In this document: positions 69-7,945 of the stretch, in pieces
Layout: each line of letters opens with the position of its first letter
Numbering within the stretch: the stretch's first letter is position 1
NCBI GenBank assembly: GCA_016188625.1
Contig: JACPHL010000199.1
Coordinates: 1 to 7,945, forward strand
DNA from: Candidatus Rokuibacteriota bacterium
Lineage (GTDB): Bacteria; Methylomirabilota; Methylomirabilia; Rokubacteriales; JACPHL01
Direction of reading: 5' to 3'
DNA: 7,945 bases
Program-made: the position numbers and the translations under genes
The notes under the pieces: model-generated
The model's input: the letters and a program-made list of their open reading frames with translations, nothing else
Databases searched by the model: none
Told to the model about the DNA's origin: nothing

Positions 69-127
69 TGAGGCTGACCCCGGAGGGCTTTGAGGTTCGC
101 GCTGTCGAATTCGGCCCACGCACGGCG
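68..127 (+). pseudogene. grdE-like 5' end relic (20 codons)
   Basis: The first 20 codons from the GTG at 68 repeat the start of the intact grdE-like gene at 6379. By hand, 16 of 20 residues and 49 of 60 bases agree, including the shared peptide FEVRAVEFG. Several differences are silent (gct/gcc, gaa/gag, cgc/cgg), so the copy diverged partly under coding constraint before or after it was cut. After about base 127 the similarity stops and the frame continues only into arginine/serine-rich translation ending at 271, with no resemblance to the family. The normal protein has about 430 residues, so this is a truncated relic, not a working gene. There is no Shine-Dalgarno sequence or promoter leader in front of it. 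Confidence 0.75.
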
Positions 128-347
128 TCGAGCCGTCGGCGCTCCCGGGGCGCCCTGAAACCCCGAAGAGGGTTCCTTACGTTTGCGTGTCTCACTGATG
201 CGTTTGCTTCATTGACAGGGTGGCGCGCTCAAGTCACTCTGATACATGAGAAAGCGATTCTCACTATGTGAAAATCATGGAACGCTCGCCTAGGACGGTC
301 TACGCCCTCTGCCCCGCCGGCGCCCGCGCCCGAGGGGAGCCGCGCCG
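128..347. other. non-coding stretch before the metF-like gene
   Basis: No coding region is supported between the grdE-like relic and the GTG at 348. The stretch holds two short GC hairpins (138-154, stem GGCGC/GCGCC; 159-174, stem AACCC/GGGTT), neither followed by a T run. A TTGACA box lies at 212-217, but no good -10 box follows at 16-18 bases. The repeated leader element lies at 243-276, and a Shine-Dalgarno sequence (GAGGGGAG, 332-339) serves the next gene. The cassette promoter is probably in here but cannot be placed with confidence. Bases 1-52 show no recognisable gene; they may be the edge of something upstream. Confidence 0.5.
243..276 (+). repeat. left copy of grd-type leader element
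   Basis: Bases 243-276 align without gaps to 6343-6376, the untranslated leader of the grdE-like gene, with 25 of 34 identities counted by hand. The best core is TATGTGA-A/G-AATC. In both copies a start-like codon plus GAA follows soon after (ATGGAA at 277, GTGGAA at 6379). The left copy also contains an imperfect dyad: ACATGAGAA (244-252) pairs with TTCTC (258-262) and ATGT (266-269), with a 3-base bulge. It may be a relic of a second grd-type leader or a regulatory site shared by both modules. Confidence 0.5.
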
Positions 348-1829
348 GTGACCCCCCACCACGCCAACGCCCTCCGCCGGGCCCTCGAGTCGGGGGGCTT
401 CGCGGTCACCGTCGAGTTCGTCGTCCCGGAGGCCCGCGAGCCGTTCGAGACCGCCATCGCCCCGGCCCTGGAGCTGGCCCAGGCCATGAAGGGGGAGCCC
501 CGCTGTCACGCCCTGGCCATCGGCGACCGGATCCGCTCCGACCATGACCACGACCCGATCGCCGTGGCGGAGCGGGTGGCCGAGGCGGGGGGGACGGCGC
601 CCCTGGTCCACCTGGCCGGGAAGGACCGCTCCGCGGCGGCGGTCAGGGCGAGCCTCGAGCGACTGCTGGCGCTGGGGCTCGAGAATGTCCTGCTGATCAC
701 CGGCGACAAGGTCAAGGCCCCGCCCGGCGACCGGCCGGTCGGCCACGTCGACGCCGTCCACGCCATCCAGGAGGCCAAGGCCCTCTCCCCCGACTTCCTG
801 GTCGCGGCGGCGGTCTGCCCGTTCAAGTACCGGGAGGAGGAGTGCCTGAATCAGTACCTGAAGATGGTCAAGAAGTGGCGGGTCGGGGCCGACTGCTTCA
901 TCACCCAGATCGGCTTCGACATGCGGAAGCTCAAGGAGCTCATCGCCTACGCGCGCGCCCGCGGGCTCGAGGTCCCGCTGCTCGCCAATGTCCTGGCCCT
1001 CACCGCCGGGCGCGGCCGCTACATCCGCGAGCACGCCATGCCGGGGATCACGATCCCGGACGAGCTCCAGGCCCTGGTGGAGGCGGAGGCCCAGGACCCC
1101 GCCAAGGGAGCCGCCCGGGCCCTCGAGCGCCTGGCCCTCCAGGCCCTCCTCGATCGGGTCGAGGGCCTCGAGGCGGCGATCCCGACCGAGGCGGCCTGGG
1201 CCGAGGCCTGGCAGGCCTCGCTGACCCGCCCCGACGGCACCCTGGTCCCTACGGCCCCTCCCGACGGCTTCTACCTGGACGGGGGGCCTCCGGCCCAGGG
1301 GGTGCGCGCCAGCGTCGGGGCGTACGCGAAGTATCTGGCCCTCGACGGGCTGGACCGCCTCCTCTTTCAAGAGGGGTCGCCGGGGGCGCGGCTCTTCGCC
1401 CCGCTCGCCCGGCGCCTGCCGGACGGCTCGAGGCTCGCCCGGGCCGTGCATGGCTTCGAGCGGCTCAGCAAGGAGCCCCTCGGATGCCAGAGCTGCGGCG
1501 TCTGCCGGCTCCCCCACACCTTCTACGTCTGCCCCGAGACCTGCCCCAAGGGGCTCGCCAACGGGCCCTGCGGGGGGACCCGGGAGAACACCTGCGAGTT
1601 CGGGGACCGGGAGTGCATTCACACCCTCACGTATCGGCTGGCGAAGCGGGCCCACGCCCTGAAGGCGCTGGAAGCGGTCGTCATCCCCGCGGTCCCGGCG
1701 GAGCGGCGGGGGACCTGCTCGTGGATCCACCACTTTCGGGGGCAGGACCCGCCGGTCGTCCGACTCGTCGGACCCCGCCGCGGGGACCCGACCGGGCCCC
1801 CCGACCCGGAGGCATCGTCAGCATCATGA
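348..1829 (+). CDS. metF: methylenetetrahydrofolate reductase, MetF-MetV-type fusion
   Basis: This 493-residue protein interconverts 5,10-methylene-THF and 5-methyl-THF in the cytoplasm. Residues about 10-280 form the flavin-binding TIM-barrel MetF domain. It has the N-terminal TVEFVVPEA strand, where E23 matches the catalytic Glu of E. coli MetF, and the LLITGD segment with D120. Residues about 365-465 are the MTHFR C-terminal (MetV-like) cysteine-rich domain, with Cys at 380, 383, 386, 395, 399, 408, 416 and 423 and the signature NGPCGG. Such cysteines bind metal or Fe-S in relatives. E. coli MetF has about 300 residues, so this is the long single-chain form. The GTG start is supported by GAGGGGAG eight bases upstream. 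The stop overlaps the next start (ATGA), so the two are translationally coupled. In this cassette it probably runs oxidatively, taking methyl-THF from the methyltransferases. The last 30 residues are proline/arginine-rich and match nothing I know. Confidence 0.9.
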   Translation: MTPHHANALRRALESGGFAVTVEFVVPEAREPFETAIAPALELAQAMKGEPRCHALAIGDRIRSDHDHDPIAVAERVAEAGGTAPLVHLAGKDRSAAAVRASLERLLALGLENVLLITGDKVKAPPGDRPVGHVDAVHAIQEAKALSPDFLVAAAVCPFKYREEECLNQYLKMVKKWRVGADCFITQIGFDMRKLKELIAYARARGLEVPLLANVLALTAGRGRYIREHAMPGITIPDELQALVEAEAQDPAKGAARALERLALQALLDRVEGLEAAIPTEAAWAEAWQASLTRPDGTLVPTAPPDGFYLDGGPPAQGVRASVGAYAKYLALDGLDRLLFQEGSPGARLFAPLARRLPDGSRLARAVHGFERLSKEPLGCQSCGVCRLPHTFYVCPETCPKGLANGPCGGTRENTCEFGDRECIHTLTYRLAKRAHALKALEAVVIPAVPAERRGTCSWIHHFRGQDPPVVRLVGPRRGDPTGPPDPEASSAS

Positions 1830-2800
1830 GCGACGCCCTCATCGTCATCGGCGAGAACCTCAACGCGACCCGGAAGCTCAAGGCCACCAGCCCCCGGATC
1901 GTCCCCCTGGACGACCACCGGTGGGGGCTCGGCTACACCGACCTCGGAGGGACCAAGCGGGTGCTGGACCTCACCGAGTGCTACCCGAAGGACCCCGAGG
2001 AGCGGGGCCGGGCCCTGGTCCCCTACATCGCCCAGGCGATCCGGGTCCGTGATCTCGACTACCTGGCCTACGCGGTCCACGCCCAGATCCGGGCGGGGGC
2101 GGACCTCATCGACTGCTGCGTGGACGAGATGTCCCCCTGGCCCGAGGAGCGGATGGCGCACATGCGCTGGCTGATCACGACGCTCCAGTCCATGACGGAC
2201 GTCACCCTGAGCGTGGACTCCTCGGACCCCGACACCATCGCCGCGGGGCTTGAGGTCTACGACCGGAAGAAGAGCCGGCCCTGCATCAACTCCGTCAACC
2301 TCGAGGAGGGCCGGCTGGTCCTCCTGGACCTCGCCAGGGAGTACGACGCCCTGCTGGTGGCCAATGCCTCGGGGCGGGAGGGGATGCCCTCCAGCGCCCA
2401 GGAGCGGGTCGACAACCTCTGCCAGGTCATGGGCCACATGGACCGCGCCGGGATCCCCCTGAAGGATCGCTACCTCGACGGGCTCGTCTTCCCGATCGGC
2501 GCCGGGCCCGACTTCGGCACCCACTACCTGGACGCCATCCGGATGCTTCGCGAGCACTTCGGGCCGGAGGTCCACCTCTTCGGTGGGCACTCCAACGTCT
2601 CCTTCGGGATGCCGAACCGGAAGCTCCTGAACGATGCCTTCCTCATCCTCTCGATCCTGGCGGGGTGCGACTGCATCATGGTGGATCCCCTGATGAACCC
2701 GCCCCGGCGGTATCTCGAGTTCAAGCTCGCCGCCGACGCCCTGACGGCCAAGGATGAGTACGGCCTCACCTACCTCGCCCACTGCAGGGCCTCGGCCTGA
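1826..2800 (+). CDS. pterin-binding methyltransferase (corrinoid:THF type)
   Basis: A 324-residue TIM-barrel protein of the pterin-binding family that includes AcsE/MeTr, MtgA and the folate domain of MetH. It likely moves a methyl group between a methylated corrinoid protein and tetrahydrofolate. Visible family marks are GENLNATRK (residues 9-17), the acidic LIDCCVDEMSP segment (about 95-104), SVDSSDPD (129-136), INSVN (154-158) and GGHSNVSFGMPNR (253-265). The Asn in the last motif, N257, matches the MeTr Asn that contacts the pterin. Its ATG overlaps the metF-like stop; the GGAGG at 1808-1812 is 13 bases away, so coupling probably matters. Next to MetF and with a corrinoid protein downstream, it is best read as methyltransferase II, delivering methyl groups to THF. 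Dihydropteroate synthase is unlikely because the HSNVSFG-type motif is of the methyltransferase branch. The natural methyl donor is not known. Confidence 0.87.
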   Translation: MSDALIVIGENLNATRKLKATSPRIVPLDDHRWGLGYTDLGGTKRVLDLTECYPKDPEERGRALVPYIAQAIRVRDLDYLAYAVHAQIRAGADLIDCCVDEMSPWPEERMAHMRWLITTLQSMTDVTLSVDSSDPDTIAAGLEVYDRKKSRPCINSVNLEEGRLVLLDLAREYDALLVANASGREGMPSSAQERVDNLCQVMGHMDRAGIPLKDRYLDGLVFPIGAGPDFGTHYLDAIRMLREHFGPEVHLFGGHSNVSFGMPNRKLLNDAFLILSILAGCDCIMVDPLMNPPRRYLEFKLAADALTAKDEYGLTYLAHCRASA

Positions 2801-2835
2801 GGGCGTGGCCGTGAGGCGCCGACGGTCCCTCTCGT

Positions 2836-2840
2836 GAGGT
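2836..2840 (+). promoter_or_regulatory. ribosome binding site fixing the ATG at 2846
   Basis: GAGGT lies five bases before the ATG at 2846. The alternative in-frame GTG at 2834 has no purine-rich sequence at the right distance. The protein from the ATG starts MPVPFLERLE, a normal N-terminus for this family. Confidence 0.65.
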
Positions 2841-2845
2841 CAGGC

Positions 2846-3814
2846 ATGCCCGTCCCCTTCCTGGAGCGTCTTGAGCGGGCGCGGTCGCGGCCGATCCTGG
2901 TCGACAGCGCCACGGGGACCTGGTTTCAGGAGGCCGTCCCCGGGATCGGGGGGGAGTGCTGCGAGCGCTTCAACCTGGAGCGACCGGACCTGGTGCGCCG
3001 CCTCTACCGCGAGAAGGTCGAGGCCGGCTCGGAGATCATCCTCACCAATACCTTCAACGCCAACCCCCTCCGGCTCCGGGAGTTCGGGCTGGAGGACCAC
3101 TCCGAGGCCTTCAACGAGGCGGGGGTGCGGCTGTTGCGCGAGGTGATCGACCAGGCCGACTCCCCTTGCTTCGTGGGGGCCAACATCGGGCCCACCGGGA
3201 AGCTGATCGGCCAGACGGCGACCTACGAGGAGACGGTGGAGTCGTTCCGCCGCCAGGCCCGGGCCCTGGTCCGGGCCGGGGCGGACCTGATCTGCATCGA
3301 GACGATGCTCCAGGCCCTGGAGGGACAGGCCGCGGTGGAGGCGGTGAAGGCGGTCTTCGTGGACGAGGGGGTGGAACTCCCCCTCTCCCTGACCTTCGCC
3401 TTCATGGAGCGGGCGCCGGGCGCCGCCGTCTACCGGACCTTCTTCGGGGACACGGTCGGCCAGCTCCTGGAGGGCCACGAGGACCTCCTGGCGGAGCGGC
3501 GCTACGACGGGGCCCTGGCGCTGGGGGTCGCCGTGGTCGGCCTCAACTGCTCGGTGGGAGTGGACGACGCCATCGGGATCACGGCCGAGTTCGCCGCCGT
3601 CCTCCGCGAGCGCGGTCTCGAGCGGCCCCTCGTGGCGGCGAAGCCCAACTCGCGGGTCATGTCCACGCAGCGGTACGAGACCCCGGAGTTCGTGGCCTCC
3701 CGATTCGAGGCGCTGGTGGGGGCCGGGGCCTCCCTGATCGGGTACTGCTGCGGGTCTGTCCCCGCCCACATCGCCCGGGCGGCGGAGGAGCGCCGGCGGC
3801 TCTTCGAGGGCTAG
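2846..3814 (+). CDS. homocysteine S-methyltransferase-family protein
   Basis: A 322-residue protein of the zinc-dependent homocysteine-binding TIM-barrel family (BHMT, MmuM, N-terminal module of MetH). Family marks are VDSATGTWFQE (19-29), LTNTFNANPLRL (67-78), GANIGPTGKL (111-120), GLNCSVG (232-238) and GYCCGS (299-304). C235, C301 and C302 are the expected three zinc ligands, so the thiol-activating site looks intact. In the family the methyl acceptor is usually homocysteine and the donor is a betaine, S-methylmethionine or a methyl-corrinoid. Here it sits 45 bases after the pterin methyltransferase, in the same direction, with a corrinoid gene downstream. It could therefore pass methyl from corrinoid to homocysteine, or act as a substrate-specific methyltransferase. 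The protein lacks its own cobalamin domain, so it would need the separate corrinoid protein at 4196. The substrate cannot be told from sequence. Confidence 0.87.
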   Translation: MPVPFLERLERARSRPILVDSATGTWFQEAVPGIGGECCERFNLERPDLVRRLYREKVEAGSEIILTNTFNANPLRLREFGLEDHSEAFNEAGVRLLREVIDQADSPCFVGANIGPTGKLIGQTATYEETVESFRRQARALVRAGADLICIETMLQALEGQAAVEAVKAVFVDEGVELPLSLTFAFMERAPGAAVYRTFFGDTVGQLLEGHEDLLAERRYDGALALGVAVVGLNCSVGVDDAIGITAEFAAVLRERGLERPLVAAKPNSRVMSTQRYETPEFVASRFEALVGAGASLIGYCCGSVPAHIARAAEERRRLFEG

Positions 3815-3846
3815 AAAGAGCTGAGGCCGCGCGAGCGAGGCGGCGC

Positions 3847-4125
3847 ATGCGACCGCTTGACGGCATCCGGGGGTGGACCTCTCGCGCGGGTCCTGGCGGG
3901 TCCCTGCTGCATCATGCTGCTGGCCGACATGGGGGCCGAGGTCATCAAGGTGGAGGAGCCGGGCAAGGGCGACGACACCCGGGCGTGGCCGCCGTTCCAG
4001 GGGGAGTCGGGGATCATGGCCTGACGGGGTTCCCCGACGGGCCACCGGTCAAGGTGGGGATCGCCATCGCGGACCTGGCCTCGGGGGCGATGGCAGCCCA
4101 CGGGATCGGCCCGTCCCTCGGACTC
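3847..4125 (+). pseudogene. decayed CaiB/BaiF family III CoA-transferase
   Basis: Pieces of a CoA-transferase family III protein appear in order but in three reading frames. They are MRPLDGIR (3847-3870), VDLSR (3873-3887), a 44-codon run from V3890 containing [19 protein letters not shown] and [20 protein letters not shown], ending SGIMA and a TGA at 4022, then [13 protein letters not shown] and IAIADLASG (4021-4125). The family start is normally MxPLxGIRVLDLSRVLAGP, so the frame breaks sit inside conserved sequence. The FQGES and SGIM parts are normally some 80-90 residues apart, so an internal deletion joined them. The Asp in IAIADLASG (codon 4072) corresponds to the family's catalytic Asp. 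About 250 C-terminal residues are absent. A purine-rich GAGGCGG before the ATG may be the old ribosome binding site. Frameshifts alone could be sequencing errors, but the deletion and missing C-terminus cannot. Hence it is a true relic. Confidence 0.82.
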
Positions 4126-4195: not shown

Positions 4196-4984
4196 ATGGC
4201 CATCGCCACGATGCAAATCGTCGACCCGATTACGGGCGACCTCGTCGAAGTCTCCGGCACCCCTGACCAGATCAAGGCCCTCCGGACGCTCGCTGCCCAC
4301 GTGGAGCGCGGCGAACATCTGGTGGTGCCCGACGCGACCCAGGCGGCCCTCGACACGGGTCTCCCCGCCTTCGACGTCCTGGTCAACGGTCTGCAGGCGG
4401 GCCTCGCCATCGTCGGCGACCGATTCAAGCGCCAGGCGGCGTTCATCCCCGAGGTGCTGATCACCGCACGGGCGATGAAGACCGGGATGACGGTGCTCAA
4501 GCCTCTCCTCGCCCCGACCAGCCAGAAGCCGAAGGGCATCGTGGTGCTCGGGACCGTTAGGGGCGACCTGCACGACATCGGCAAGGGGATCGTCGGCATC
4601 ATGCTGGAGGGCGCCGGCTTCGAGGTGCACGACTGCGGGGTGAACACCTCCCCGGAGCAGTTCGTCCAGAAGATCCTGGACGTCAAGGCCGATATCATGG
4701 GCATGTCCGCCCTGCTGAGCACCACTATGATGAACCACAAGGTCACCATTCAGGCGCTGACGGAGGCTGGCCTGCGCGGCAAGGTCAAGGTCATGTCTGG
4801 CGGCGCGCCGGTGACCGCGCGCTTCGCCGAGGACATCGGCGCGGACGCCTGGGCACCCGACGCCCTTACTGCGGTGGAGGCCGCGAAGCTGTTGATCAGT
4901 GCCGACTGGGGCGGGACCTTCGTGAACGGTGGCGCCCTGGAGCGGAAGGCTCTCGTCGATACAACGCCGGAGGCGTCCGCCTGA
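4196..4984 (+). CDS. corrinoid (B12-binding) methyl-carrier protein
   Basis: A 262-residue relative of MtaC/MtbC/MttC and the MetH cobalamin module. Residues about 25-105 make the helical cap domain and about 112-235 the Rossmann-like B12 domain. The cobalt-ligand motif is intact: GDLHDIGKG at 123-131, with His126 as the lower ligand. The supporting SALLST (171-176) and SGGAPV (201-206) loops are present. It would carry the methyl group between the URO-D-type and pterin-type methyltransferases in the cytoplasm. AGGAGGG ends four bases before the ATG, a strong ribosome binding site. Typical members have about 210-220 residues. This one has roughly 25 extra at the N-terminus (MAIATMQIVDPITGDLVEV, and on) and a 25-residue tail after 238. 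More A/T-ending codons occur here and in the next gene than in the three genes before, so this pair may have a separate origin from 348-3814. A reactivating ATPase (RamA/RACE) would be needed but is not in the window. Confidence 0.92.
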   Translation: MAIATMQIVDPITGDLVEVSGTPDQIKALRTLAAHVERGEHLVVPDATQAALDTGLPAFDVLVNGLQAGLAIVGDRFKRQAAFIPEVLITARAMKTGMTVLKPLLAPTSQKPKGIVVLGTVRGDLHDIGKGIVGIMLEGAGFEVHDCGVNTSPEQFVQKILDVKADIMGMSALLSTTMMNHKVTIQALTEAGLRGKVKVMSGGAPVTARFAEDIGADAWAPDALTAVEAAKLLISADWGGTFVNGGALERKALVDTTPEASA

Positions 4985-5041: not shown

Positions 5042-6079
5042 ATGGCCCTGGCGTCGATGAGCCCCATGGACCGCATCATGGCGGTGTGCCACCACGAGAT
5101 TCCCGACCGCGTGCCGTTTCTCCTCACGTCGCGGGAGTTCGGCCTGCGCTACGCCGGGGTCAAGCATTCCAAGGCCTACGAGGACCCTGAGATCTACATC
5201 GGCGCCCAGTTGAAGCTGCTCAAGGATTTCCAGCTAGACGGGGTGTGGGACATCTGGTGCACACCCGCGGTCGACGAGGCCCTCGGCGCCACCATGGAGA
5301 TCCCGGATGACGATCCGCCCTGGATCACCCGCCCGTGCGTACATGGGCCCGCTGACCTGGAGAAACTCAAGCCCGTCAATCCGTGGAGGGATGGGCGGAT
5401 GCCGTATCTGCTGGACGTCATAGCGAGGCTCAAGAAGGCGGTCGGCCCCGACGTGCCGGTCATCGCCTGGGCGTCGCCCCCCTTTCGGACCGCGTGCATG
5501 ATCCGGGGCAACACCGAGCTCTACATGGACATCTACGACAACCCACAGTTCGTCAAGAACCTGCTTGAGTTCACCACGGAGACCTGCACCGCCTATGGGA
5601 AGGCCCTGGTTGAGGCAGGCGCCGACATCATCGCAACCTCCAACCCGGTCGCCAACATGGACTGCATCTCGCTTGACCACTTCAAGGAGTTCGCCCACCC
5701 CTACAGCAAGCGCATGTTTGCGGCCCTGAAGGATGCCGGTGCCAAGGCCATCAACTTTCACACCTGCGGCCGATGGGACGACCGCTACGAGCTCTGCGTG
5801 GAGAACGCGGACATCATCCACTGCGATCGGGTGGACCTCGGCGAGTTCAAGGCCAAGTACTCGAACAAGGTCGTCACCATGGGCAACGTCAAGTCGGTCG
5901 CCACGCTGCTGCAGGGAACGTCGGAGCAGGTGGCTGCGGAGGCGCTCCAGTGCATGGCGGCGGCGCCCGGGGGGCGCTACATCTTCAGCAGCGACTGTGC
6001 CGTGCCGCGCGACCCCCCGCCCGCTAACGTGCGCGCCATGGCCAACGTTCGCGAGGAGGTCGGCGCCTACCCGGTGTGA
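5042..6079 (+). CDS. URO-D-fold corrinoid methyltransferase (MtaA/MtvB type)
   Basis: A 345-residue protein of the uroporphyrinogen decarboxylase superfamily, in the methyltransferase branch. The zinc-ligand pattern is His240-Thr-Cys242 (FHTCG) with a distal Cys319 in FSSDCAVP, as in methylcobamide:CoM methyltransferases MtaA/MtbA and bacterial O-demethylase methyltransferases. True HemE uses different conserved residues and lacks this triad. Other marks are PDRVPF (21-26), a MALASMSPMDRIMAV start typical of the family, and NADIIHCDRVDLGEFK near 255-270. GGAGGAG ends five bases before the ATG. It follows the corrinoid gene by 57 bases with the stem-loop between, so the two are likely co-transcribed. 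In bacteria without coenzyme M such proteins move a methyl from the substrate (methoxy, methylamine, methyl halide or methylthiol type) onto the corrinoid protein. That is the likely role here, but the substrate is unknown. Confidence 0.88.
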   Translation: MALASMSPMDRIMAVCHHEIPDRVPFLLTSREFGLRYAGVKHSKAYEDPEIYIGAQLKLLKDFQLDGVWDIWCTPAVDEALGATMEIPDDDPPWITRPCVHGPADLEKLKPVNPWRDGRMPYLLDVIARLKKAVGPDVPVIAWASPPFRTACMIRGNTELYMDIYDNPQFVKNLLEFTTETCTAYGKALVEAGADIIATSNPVANMDCISLDHFKEFAHPYSKRMFAALKDAGAKAINFHTCGRWDDRYELCVENADIIHCDRVDLGEFKAKYSNKVVTMGNVKSVATLLQGTSEQVAAEALQCMAAAPGGRYIFSSDCAVPRDPPPANVRAMANVREEVGAYPV

Positions 6080-6204
6080 CGGCCCGGCAGCGAGGCCTGA
6101 CGCGCTGCGCCGCATCCCGCCTTCTGCGATCGGTGTCGGGAGGGCATCGTCGTTGTCGGTCACCTCAGGCGCCGAATCATCTCGATCGAGGATGGAGGCG
6201 GCCG

Positions 6205-6291
6205 ATGATGAAGCCATTCACGGTATTCATTACATCAATCGGTTTTTCGGCGGCCTCGGCGGCGGGGACACGGGGATGAGCCCGGAGCCGA
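6205..6291 (+). pseudogene. grdB-like 5' end relic, frameshifted
   Basis: Starting at ATGATGAAG (6205), this copies the beginning of the grdB-like gene at 7687. The peptide MKPFTV is followed, after a one-base loss near 6224, by IHYINRFFGGLGGGDTG and MSPEPT. The intact gene reads MTPLKVVHYINQFFGGIGGE. A GGAGG at 6194-6198 keeps proper spacing to the ATG, so the relic retains its ribosome binding site. Similarity ends near 6291. The +2-shifted frame stops at 6309-6311, inside the promoter of the next gene. The normal protein has over 400 residues. It is an abandoned N-terminal fragment of a second grdB-type gene, not a product of the neighbouring URO-D gene. Confidence 0.78.
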
Positions 6292-6307: not shown

Positions 6308-6336
6308 TTGACACCGGCCCGGCCGCCGCGATAAAT
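6308..6336 (+). promoter_or_regulatory. sigma-70-type promoter of the grdE-like gene
   Basis: TTGACA (6308-6313) is followed by 17 bases and ATAAAT (6331-6336). This is a near-consensus pair in DNA where such boxes are rare. It is followed by an AT-rich leader (ATATTAATTTT at 6351-6361). It predicts a transcript start near 6343 and a leader of about 35 bases. It shows that the grd-like pair is transcribed from its own start, separately from the methyl-transfer cassette. Confidence 0.65.
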
Positions 6337-6342
6337 TCCTTC

Positions 6343-6376
6343 TACGGGAGATATTAATTTTCAGTATGTGAGAATC
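6343..6376 (+). repeat. right copy of grd-type leader element
   Basis: This is the leader of the grdE-like gene, aligned gap-free to 243-276 with 25 of 34 identities. It ends three bases before the GTG start codon. GTGAG at 6368-6372 within it is the only ribosome binding site candidate, six bases from the start, so part of the conservation may reflect translation initiation. The rest, including TAC at 6343 and TATGTGA, suggests common descent or a shared regulator. Confidence 0.5.
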
Positions 6377-6378
6377 CG

Positions 6379-7671
6379 GTGGAACTGACCCTGGAGAGCT
6401 TTGAGGTTCGCGCCGTCGAGTTCGGCACGCGGACCGCGTTCGTGGACGGGGTCCTCTCGATCGACCGGGAGGAGATCCGCCGGCTCGCGGGGGACGGCCG
6501 GTTCATCGAGGACGTCCAAGTCGAGCTGGCGTCGCCGGGCGAGGCGACCCGGATCGTCCACGTGCTGGACGCCCTCGAGCCCCGGATCAAGGTGGACGGG
6601 GAGGCGGTCGCGTTCCCGGGCTTTCTCGGGCCGGCCCGCACCGTCGGGCACGGGGTGACCAGGCGCCTGGCCGGGCTCGCGGTGCTGGAGTCGGCCGAGC
6701 TGCCGGAGCCGACGGGCGGGATCCTGGAGTTCAACGAGGGGGTCATCGACATGAGCGGGCCGGGGGCCGACCGCTGCGCCTGCTCGACCACCCACAACGT
6801 GGTCCTCCTCTTCACGGCGCGCCGCGGCGCGACCAACCGCGAGTTCGAGTCCGCGCTCCGCCTCGGGGCCCTCCGGGTCACCCGGCGGCTCGCCGAAACG
6901 GTGCTCGACGCGCCCGGGCCCGACGCGGTCGAGCGGTTCGAGCTGGGCGGGGCCGATCCCGACCTGCCGCGCGTGGTCTACGTGGACCAGGTGCAGCACC
7001 AGGGCTTCCTGGTCCAGACCTTCCTCTACGGCCAGCCCATCGAGCACCTCGTCCCCACGGTCCTGCACCCGAACGAGTACTTCGACGGGGCGGTGGTGAG
7101 CGGCAACTACCGGAGCATGATGAAGGTGCCGACCTGGCTCCGCCTGAACCATCCGGTCATCCGGGCGCTCTACCGCCGCCATGCGCGCGACCTGAACTTC
7201 ATCGGGGTGGTCTTCTGCCGCGGGCACCACGGCGATCACCTGCTCAAGGAGCGTAACGGCCACATGGTGGCGAACGCCGCGCGCATGCTCGGGGCCGAGG
7301 GCGCCGTCATGACGCTCGAGGGGACCGGGAACACGTGGGTGGACTTCATGCAGAGCGCGCGCGCGCTGGAGCGCGCGGGGATCAAGACCGTCCAGGTCGT
7401 CCATGAGCTGGGCGGACCGGAAGGGAAGGACTGGCCCGTCGTGGATTACACGCCGGAGGCCGACGCCATCGTGAGCGGCGGCGGCGCCGATCGCCGGTTC
7501 GCGCTCCCGGCGGTCGCGCGCGTGGTCGGGGGCCCCGAGGTGGTGTTCAGCACGGCCGAGGGGTGGGGCCAGCGCTTCAGCGCGGCGGATAGCCTGACCG
7601 TCAGCGCCCACGAGATGTACGCCGGATTCTGGATGATGCAGACGAACGGGTTCACGGCCCGGGACTTCTAG
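6379..7671 (+). CDS. GrdE/GrdG/GrdI-like reductase component B protein without the pyruvoyl Cys
   Basis: A 430-residue full-length homologue of the component B proprotein of glycine, sarcosine or betaine reductase. Family marks in order: ELTLESFEVRAVEFG start, VELASPGEATRI (48-59), GIIDMSGPGA-like GVIDMSGPGA (121-130), THNVV (138-142), PNEYFDGAVVSGN (231-243), LNFIGVVF (272-279), EGTGN (314-318) and SGGG (366-369). In the studied enzymes the proprotein is cut between Asn and Cys in the SGNC/SDNC motif and the Cys becomes a catalytic pyruvoyl group (about position 242 in GrdE). Here the motif reads VSGNYRSMM, with Tyr244 in place of Cys. No auto-cleavage or pyruvoyl formation is expected. A C133-A-C135 pair lies in the middle domain, which I do not recall from classical members. 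The GTG start is supported by the weak GTGAG and by a matching N-terminal relic at 68. The product probably pairs with the GrdB-like protein 15 bases downstream. Substrate unknown. Confidence 0.88.
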   Translation: MELTLESFEVRAVEFGTRTAFVDGVLSIDREEIRRLAGDGRFIEDVQVELASPGEATRIVHVLDALEPRIKVDGEAVAFPGFLGPARTVGHGVTRRLAGLAVLESAELPEPTGGILEFNEGVIDMSGPGADRCACSTTHNVVLLFTARRGATNREFESALRLGALRVTRRLAETVLDAPGPDAVERFELGGADPDLPRVVYVDQVQHQGFLVQTFLYGQPIEHLVPTVLHPNEYFDGAVVSGNYRSMMKVPTWLRLNHPVIRALYRRHARDLNFIGVVFCRGHHGDHLLKERNGHMVANAARMLGAEGAVMTLEGTGNTWVDFMQSARALERAGIKTVQVVHELGGPEGKDWPVVDYTPEADAIVSGGGADRRFALPAVARVVGGPEVVFSTAEGWGQRFSAADSLTVSAHEMYAGFWMMQTNGFTARDF

Positions 7672-7686
7672 GACGGGGTGGTCGAG

Positions 7687-7945
7687 ATGACGCCACTCAA
7701 GGTCGTCCACTACATCAATCAGTTCTTCGGCGGGATCGGCGGTGAGGACAAGGCGGACGCGAGCCCGACCTACCGATCCGGGCCGGTGGGGCCCGGGACG
7801 GCCCTGGCGAGGCACCTGGGCGCCGGGGCGACCGTCGTGGGAACGCTGATCTGCGGGGACAACTATTTCGTCGAGCACACGGACGAGGCGGTCACCGAGC
7901 TGCTCCAGCTGGCCAAGACCTACGACGCCGACGTGCTGGTGGCGG
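7687..7945 (+). CDS. GrdB/GrdF/GrdH-like component B subunit, 5' part
   Basis: The first 86 codons of a gene that continues past the window. The translation begins MTPLKVVHYINQFFGGIGGE and continues through GPVGPGTAL (32-40) and ICGDNYFVEHTDEAV (55-69), ending VLVA. These are the N-terminal marks of the selenoprotein/cysteine B subunit of glycine, sarcosine and betaine reductases, normally over 400 residues. GGGGTG at 7675-7680 is six bases before the ATG, and the grdE-like stop is 15 bases away, so the pair is an operon. In the family the catalytic selenocysteine (in-frame TGA) or cysteine lies in the C-terminal half, outside this window, so the active-site type cannot be judged. A decayed copy of this start is at 6205. 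Confidence 0.88.
   Translation, partial: MTPLKVVHYINQFFGGIGGEDKADASPTYRSGPVGPGTALARHLGAGATVVGTLICGDNYFVEHTDEAVTELLQLAKTYDADVLVA

Follow-up and report, generated by a model that had tools for sequence, protein, structure and literature searches.

Glycine/sarcosine/betaine-type component B without a pyruvoyl group is already a published principle: FarE of fluoroacetate reductase, in common with GrdI of betaine reductase, is without both processing cysteines and is no proprotein, and FarB, the selenocysteine (Sec) partner of FarE, has lost the CxxC beside Sec (PMC10838667). Here we analysed a 7,945-nucleotide stretch of DNA (hereafter, the window) that carries a grdE-like gene. It is contig C341 in a fragmented assembly of 344 contigs, which totals 2.6 Mb and is 84% complete. 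The product of the grdE-like gene resembles GrdI/GrdH in that it belongs to the same family, has an aromatic residue in the pyruvoyl-Cys column and has a partner that is probably a Sec protein. It resembles FarE/FarB, which come from Synergistota, in the absence of both processing cysteines, and a CxxC-less Sec partner is found both in FarB and in the GrdB of the window's subclade. Neither of the genes farA (antiporter) and farC (radical SAM) was found in the window, whose contig ends within grdB. Our main reading, to which we assign a probability of about 0.7, is that the window encodes a pyruvoyl-free, non-proprotein alpha subunit of a component B of this type, acting on a substrate that has no need of a Schiff base.

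A full-length GrdE-like protein without processing cysteines

The grdE-like gene (6379..7671, + strand) encodes a component-B-type reductase alpha subunit of 430 aa. All of its 430 codons are open, with no interruption and a third-position GC of 0.96, and the product matches the Gly_reductase profile PF09338 at 378 bits (curated cut-off 22.2, E 5e-113) over profile positions 1-414 of 426. This whole-length match places the protein within the superfamily and agrees with the first-pass annotation, which had described the chain as full length and uninterrupted. In a search of NCBIfam, no curated equivalog cut-off was reached: the best profile was GrdG, at 290 bits versus a cut-off of 780, and membership in FarE was rejected at 116 bits versus a cut-off of 675. 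A phmmer search of the PDB gave no credible solved relative, and an AlphaFold2 model made from two sequences had a pLDDT of 34, too low to place Tyr244 in an active site.

Alignments placed the former processing-site region at residues 237-251 (7087..7131, + strand; GAVVSGNYRSMMKVP). Within the translated segment HPNEYFDGAVVSGNY-RSMMKVPTWLRLNHPVI, Tyr244 (TAC, codon 7108-7110) stands in the pyruvoyl-Cys column, so the earlier claim that Tyr replaces the pyruvoyl-forming Cys is borne out by both translation and alignment. The window site reads SGNY-RSMMK, versus SGNC-VSACDK in GrdE/GrdG; the second Cys, that of the SAC/APC motif, is missing as had been claimed, along with a one-residue deletion that the annotation did not mention. 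Among the compared sites, GrdG of Peptoclostridium acidaminophilum reads SGNCVAPCDK, the GrdE types of A. noterae and Photobacterium read SGNCVSACDK, and several proteins of the Desulfovibrio phylum likewise have SGNC, with VSACDK or APCDK after it. PrdA, the proprotein of D-proline reductase, is a distant homologue that shares the Cys column and, unlike the window protein, keeps Thr-Cys (ALTCIGPASK, or ALTC-IGPASK when divided at the same point).

Homology to GrdE and GrdG extends over the full length of the window protein, with 37% identity to GrdG, but the invariant or near-invariant residues of their Cys clade (K63, H212, D213, D248 and both Cys) are missing from it. Its only cysteines are C133, C135 and C280. 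An Asn-Cys elsewhere in the chain had been named beforehand as the observation that would speak against Cys loss; neither an N-C nor a T-C dipeptide occurs anywhere in the protein, and with Tyr244 in the column the processing-site Asn-Cys of GrdE/GrdG is absent. Without both processing cysteines, the protein would therefore carry no pyruvoyl, and it is predicted from its sequence to remain uncleaved. The earlier suggestion of changed chemistry thus holds as regards pyruvoyl loss, which is supported, but not as a novelty, as GrdI and FarE had already been described without both cysteines. Sequencing error or chance as the source of Tyr244 was rejected, since SGNY is common to homologues in independent genomes, where it was found again in two phyla.

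Phylogeny of the Cys-less proteins

A first tree covered 60 family members. The 17 that have Cys fall into a single clade, close to which lie two betaine-type GrdI proteins with Phe, and the remaining members are without Cys. In a thinned tree rooted on PrdA, a single clade (support 94/99) takes in the other 25 Cys-less proteins. The trait columns were excluded from both trees; PrdA was the outgroup, and no FarE sequence was included. The first-pass annotation had proposed such a tree, asking whether Cys-less members form one clade with a conserved alternative in the Tyr244 column. Outside GrdI, they do form one clade. Tyr is the commonest residue (12 of 25) but not a strict one, the others having Arg, Met, Thr, Ser or Phe in the column, which led us to reject Tyr as a universal substitute. 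A Tyr-derived quinone was likewise rejected, having no support and with the residue varying across the wider Cys-less clade. As the Cys is also present in PrdA, a Cys ancestor is the simpler assumption; the order of Cys losses rests on a long outgroup branch, and we make no claim about it.

GrdI branches separately, close to the Cys clade and outside the 25-row Cys-less clade, and is 34-36% identical to the window protein. At the two betaine-type loci checked (E. gilvus and A. noterae), it has Phe in the column, whereas the window has Tyr. Membership of the window protein in GrdI was rejected: it shares the absence of the pyruvoyl Cys but does not group with GrdI in the tree.

The Cys-less branch spans two phyla, with Cys absent from all homologues found in the window's phylum and, in the Desulfovibrio phylum, from about half. 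The closest relatives of the window protein are a protein from a Desulfovibrio MAG (L031, 46% identical) and one from G009, a genome of the same order (48%), both of which have SGNY. Together with the window protein they form a subclade (support 100/99), and C135, H283 and H342 are invariant in its three members and rare or absent elsewhere. One could imagine that in the subclade another electrophile or Lewis acid has taken the place of pyruvoyl at the same site, with Tyr244 and these three residues forming a metal or acid centre where a methylated carboxymethyl substrate is activated for selenocysteine attack, though we hold this to be very doubtful. A scan of genome contigs for relatives returned the Desulfovibrio locus only, and a scan of viral contigs gave no match. 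Separately, MT838886.1 (L126), an UNVERIFIED record from human faeces labelled 'Bacteriophage sp.', carries a Cys-type GrdE, an adjoining GrdB and a partial trxB; it is probably a mislabelled bacterial contig.

The probable selenoprotein partner and the other pathway components

The grdE-like gene is followed by the start of a grdB-like gene (7678..7945, + strand; PF07355, 1e-30), which the contig end cuts off after 89 codons, short of the selenocysteine site; a search of the window's genome found no further grdB piece. Homologous partner grdB genes have an in-frame TGA near codon 346-347, and an in-frame TGA is present in every GrdB partner readable across the site, beside Cys-type or Cys-less E alike. 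In six of six partners checked, the reading frame stays open past the TGA for about 90 codons before a stop. A hairpin of 6 or 7 pairs lies within 39 bases from the TGA in 49 of 49 distinct sequences, and this SECIS-like element has 98.5% of its cells paired and 22 compensatory cells, versus 4.4 in shuffles. We infer that the window's own grdB, cut off ahead of its Sec codon, likewise encodes a Sec protein. The GrdB proteins of the window's subclade lack the CxxC beside Sec: the usual UGTCTRCG is replaced by UGTGTRSG or UGSGTRSG. GrdH, by comparison, keeps TSTUGTCTRCG, while the longer subclade motif is TATUGTGTRSG or VATUGSGTRSG. In subclade grdB, the Cys-to-Ser change (TGC to AGC) is offset by a silent GCA to GCT, with the stem kept.

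For the E-B pair, we propose a reductase reaction in which the alpha subunit, having no Cys, would stay uncleaved and bear no pyruvoyl, and the selenolate of its GrdB-type partner would attack the carbon bearing the leaving group. By analogy with the proposals made for GrdI/GrdH and FarE/FarB, the substrate would be activated through its binding or through a good leaving group instead of a Schiff base. The resulting carboxymethyl-Se adduct would pass to selenoprotein GrdA and then to component C, which would yield acetyl phosphate. The branch as a whole probably reduces something other than a simple amine. An amine could still be the substrate if the carbonyl came from another residue, such as a formylglycine derived from Ser in the GrdB STUG motif, an idea speculated for FarB (PMC10838667) and in keeping with a review according to which the glycine reductase carbonyl has never been clearly identified (PMC10298544). 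In the subclade, however, this motif reads T-A-T-U-G (Desulfovibrio) or V-A-T-U-G (G009), so that the candidate Ser is gone too, and C133, C135 and C280 of the window protein lie outside any processing motif; we regard such a source of the carbonyl as quite improbable.

The further components of the pyruvoyl-free route that we favour, GrdA and component C, are present in the window's genome. Contig C140 carries grdA (C140:620-1060) with one in-frame TGA and, beside it at the contig start, a partial grdC (C140:4-609); beyond grdA lie an IclR-type regulator, a TRAP transporter and the start of a TPP enzyme. The genome also has selA and tRNA-Sec (75.7 bits). The gene order is C-A-E-B at one Cys-less locus (G072) and E-B-C-A at another (G086), and because of the latter we would guess that C341 and C140 are two pieces of one operon. 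No grdD was found near the grd sets of the window's genome or G086. In the Desulfovibrio relative, trxB-grdC-grdD-trx-grdA lies on the same contig as the Cys-less grdE. As an observation in its own right, the gene directly after grdB in the Desulfovibrio MAG (L031:10695-12425) encodes a four-domain rhodanese-like protein, followed by a peptide-type ABC transporter; the rhodanese-like neighbour is a possible hint of a sulfur-containing substrate.

Neither GrdA nor GrdC was found in G009, the close subclade member, a draft genome at 92% completeness. Because of this absence, acetyl phosphate delivery may fail in some members, and the gap is the main objection to a uniform acetyl-phosphate role. 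It would favour a route in which the subclade stands outside acetyl phosphate formation, E-B cleaving a C-X bond and handing the product to another acceptor, for example that of 2-oxoacid:ferredoxin oxidoreductase-like genes. Related TPP-dependent genes of this kind do occur near grdEB in G009 (L078:2957-4885) and near grdA in the window's genome (L112:5467-5835), with 43% identity to each other over 103 aa. Set against this are the GrdA and GrdC of the window's genome and of the Desulfovibrio relative, and the draft state of G009, and we consider this alternative route unlikely.

Neighbouring genes, candidate substrates and implications

Upstream of grdE, the + strand of the window carries a set of methyl-transfer genes: a MetF-like methylenetetrahydrofolate reductase with a DUF5981 C-terminus (348..1829; PF02219, PF12225), a pterin-binding methyl-THF:corrinoid methyltransferase-like gene (1826..2800; PF00809; NF005719 at 191 bits, below the cut-off of 259), a homocysteine S-methyltransferase / betaine-homocysteine methyltransferase-like gene (2834..3814; PF02574), a corrinoid protein (4196..4984; PF02310, PF02607) and a URO-D/MtaA/CmuA-type corrinoid methyltransferase (5042..6079; PF01208). 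The NCBIfam families nearest to the corrinoid protein are MtgC/MtbC, its MtgC score of 187 bits falling short of the cut-off of 370. Between the homocysteine methyltransferase and corrinoid genes, at 3842-4023, there is also a short coding-like remnant that by eye resembles a CoA-transferase N-terminus.

A sigma-70-like promoter, TTGACA-18-TAAATT, lies 5' of grdE (6308..6337, + strand; one found versus 0.1 expected in shuffles), and just 5' of the grdE start is an operator-like dyad, ATTTTCAGTATGTGAGAATC (6357..6376, + strand), of the pattern ATTYTCASTATGTGARAATC. A second copy, ATTCTCACTATGTGAAAATC, lies 5' of the methyl-transfer operon (257..276, + strand). These are the only two exact copies of ATTYTCASTATGTGARAATC in the 2.6 Mb genome. 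A third dyad, with 2 mismatches, lies where contig C19 ends, 5' of another grdE head, and contig C140 has no copy. The C19 locus (16282-16445; L130, L132) stops inside this other grdE-like 5' end, with promoter layout and dyad as at the window grdE; a second grdE copy may be present in the genome.

Two decayed fragments flank the methyl-transfer genes, both on the + strand: a 5' fragment of a second grdE copy (74..128; 85% nucleotide identity to 6385-6439, E 1e-13) and a grdE-grdB junction with a grdB 5' fragment (6186..6284; 77% identical to 7667-7767, E 1e-12). Their arrangement looks like that of an older grdEB copy split by the methyl-transfer genes. With such grdE and grdB heads decaying in the same window, the grdE-like gene might itself be a paralogue whose active site has been lost and which is turning into a pseudogene. 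Its fully open reading frame, high third-position GC and full profile match disfavour this, as do the intact promoter-like site and dyad and the retention of SGNY in the 46-48% identical homologues of other genomes, and we judge decay to be extremely unlikely. The earlier view that the gene encodes a maintained protein and is not dying is supported by this retention.

Returning to a maintained, pyruvoyl-free component B, a methylated substrate is plausible because the corrinoid protein is nearest to MtgC/MtbC. Because the corrinoid methyl-transfer operon shares the operator-like dyad with grdE, we would guess that a methylated onium or a comparable carboxymethyl compound serves as the substrate. 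A methyltransferase operon beside grdEB was absent at every other locus examined, so that this hint at the substrate comes from one genome.

While pyruvoyl-free component B is known as a principle, the broad clade of Cys-less proteins in these phyla, in which Tyr is the most frequent residue of the column, appears to be undescribed in the open-access papers searched. Pipelines name family members glycine or sarcosine reductase although many are without the pyruvoyl-forming Cys, and the presence or absence of Cys in the alpha subunit offers a simple one-residue test for loci able to reduce amines by a Schiff base. This split makes substrate activation without pyruvoyl directly testable, and the Cys-less clade points to further selenium-dependent substrates in uncultivated bacteria.
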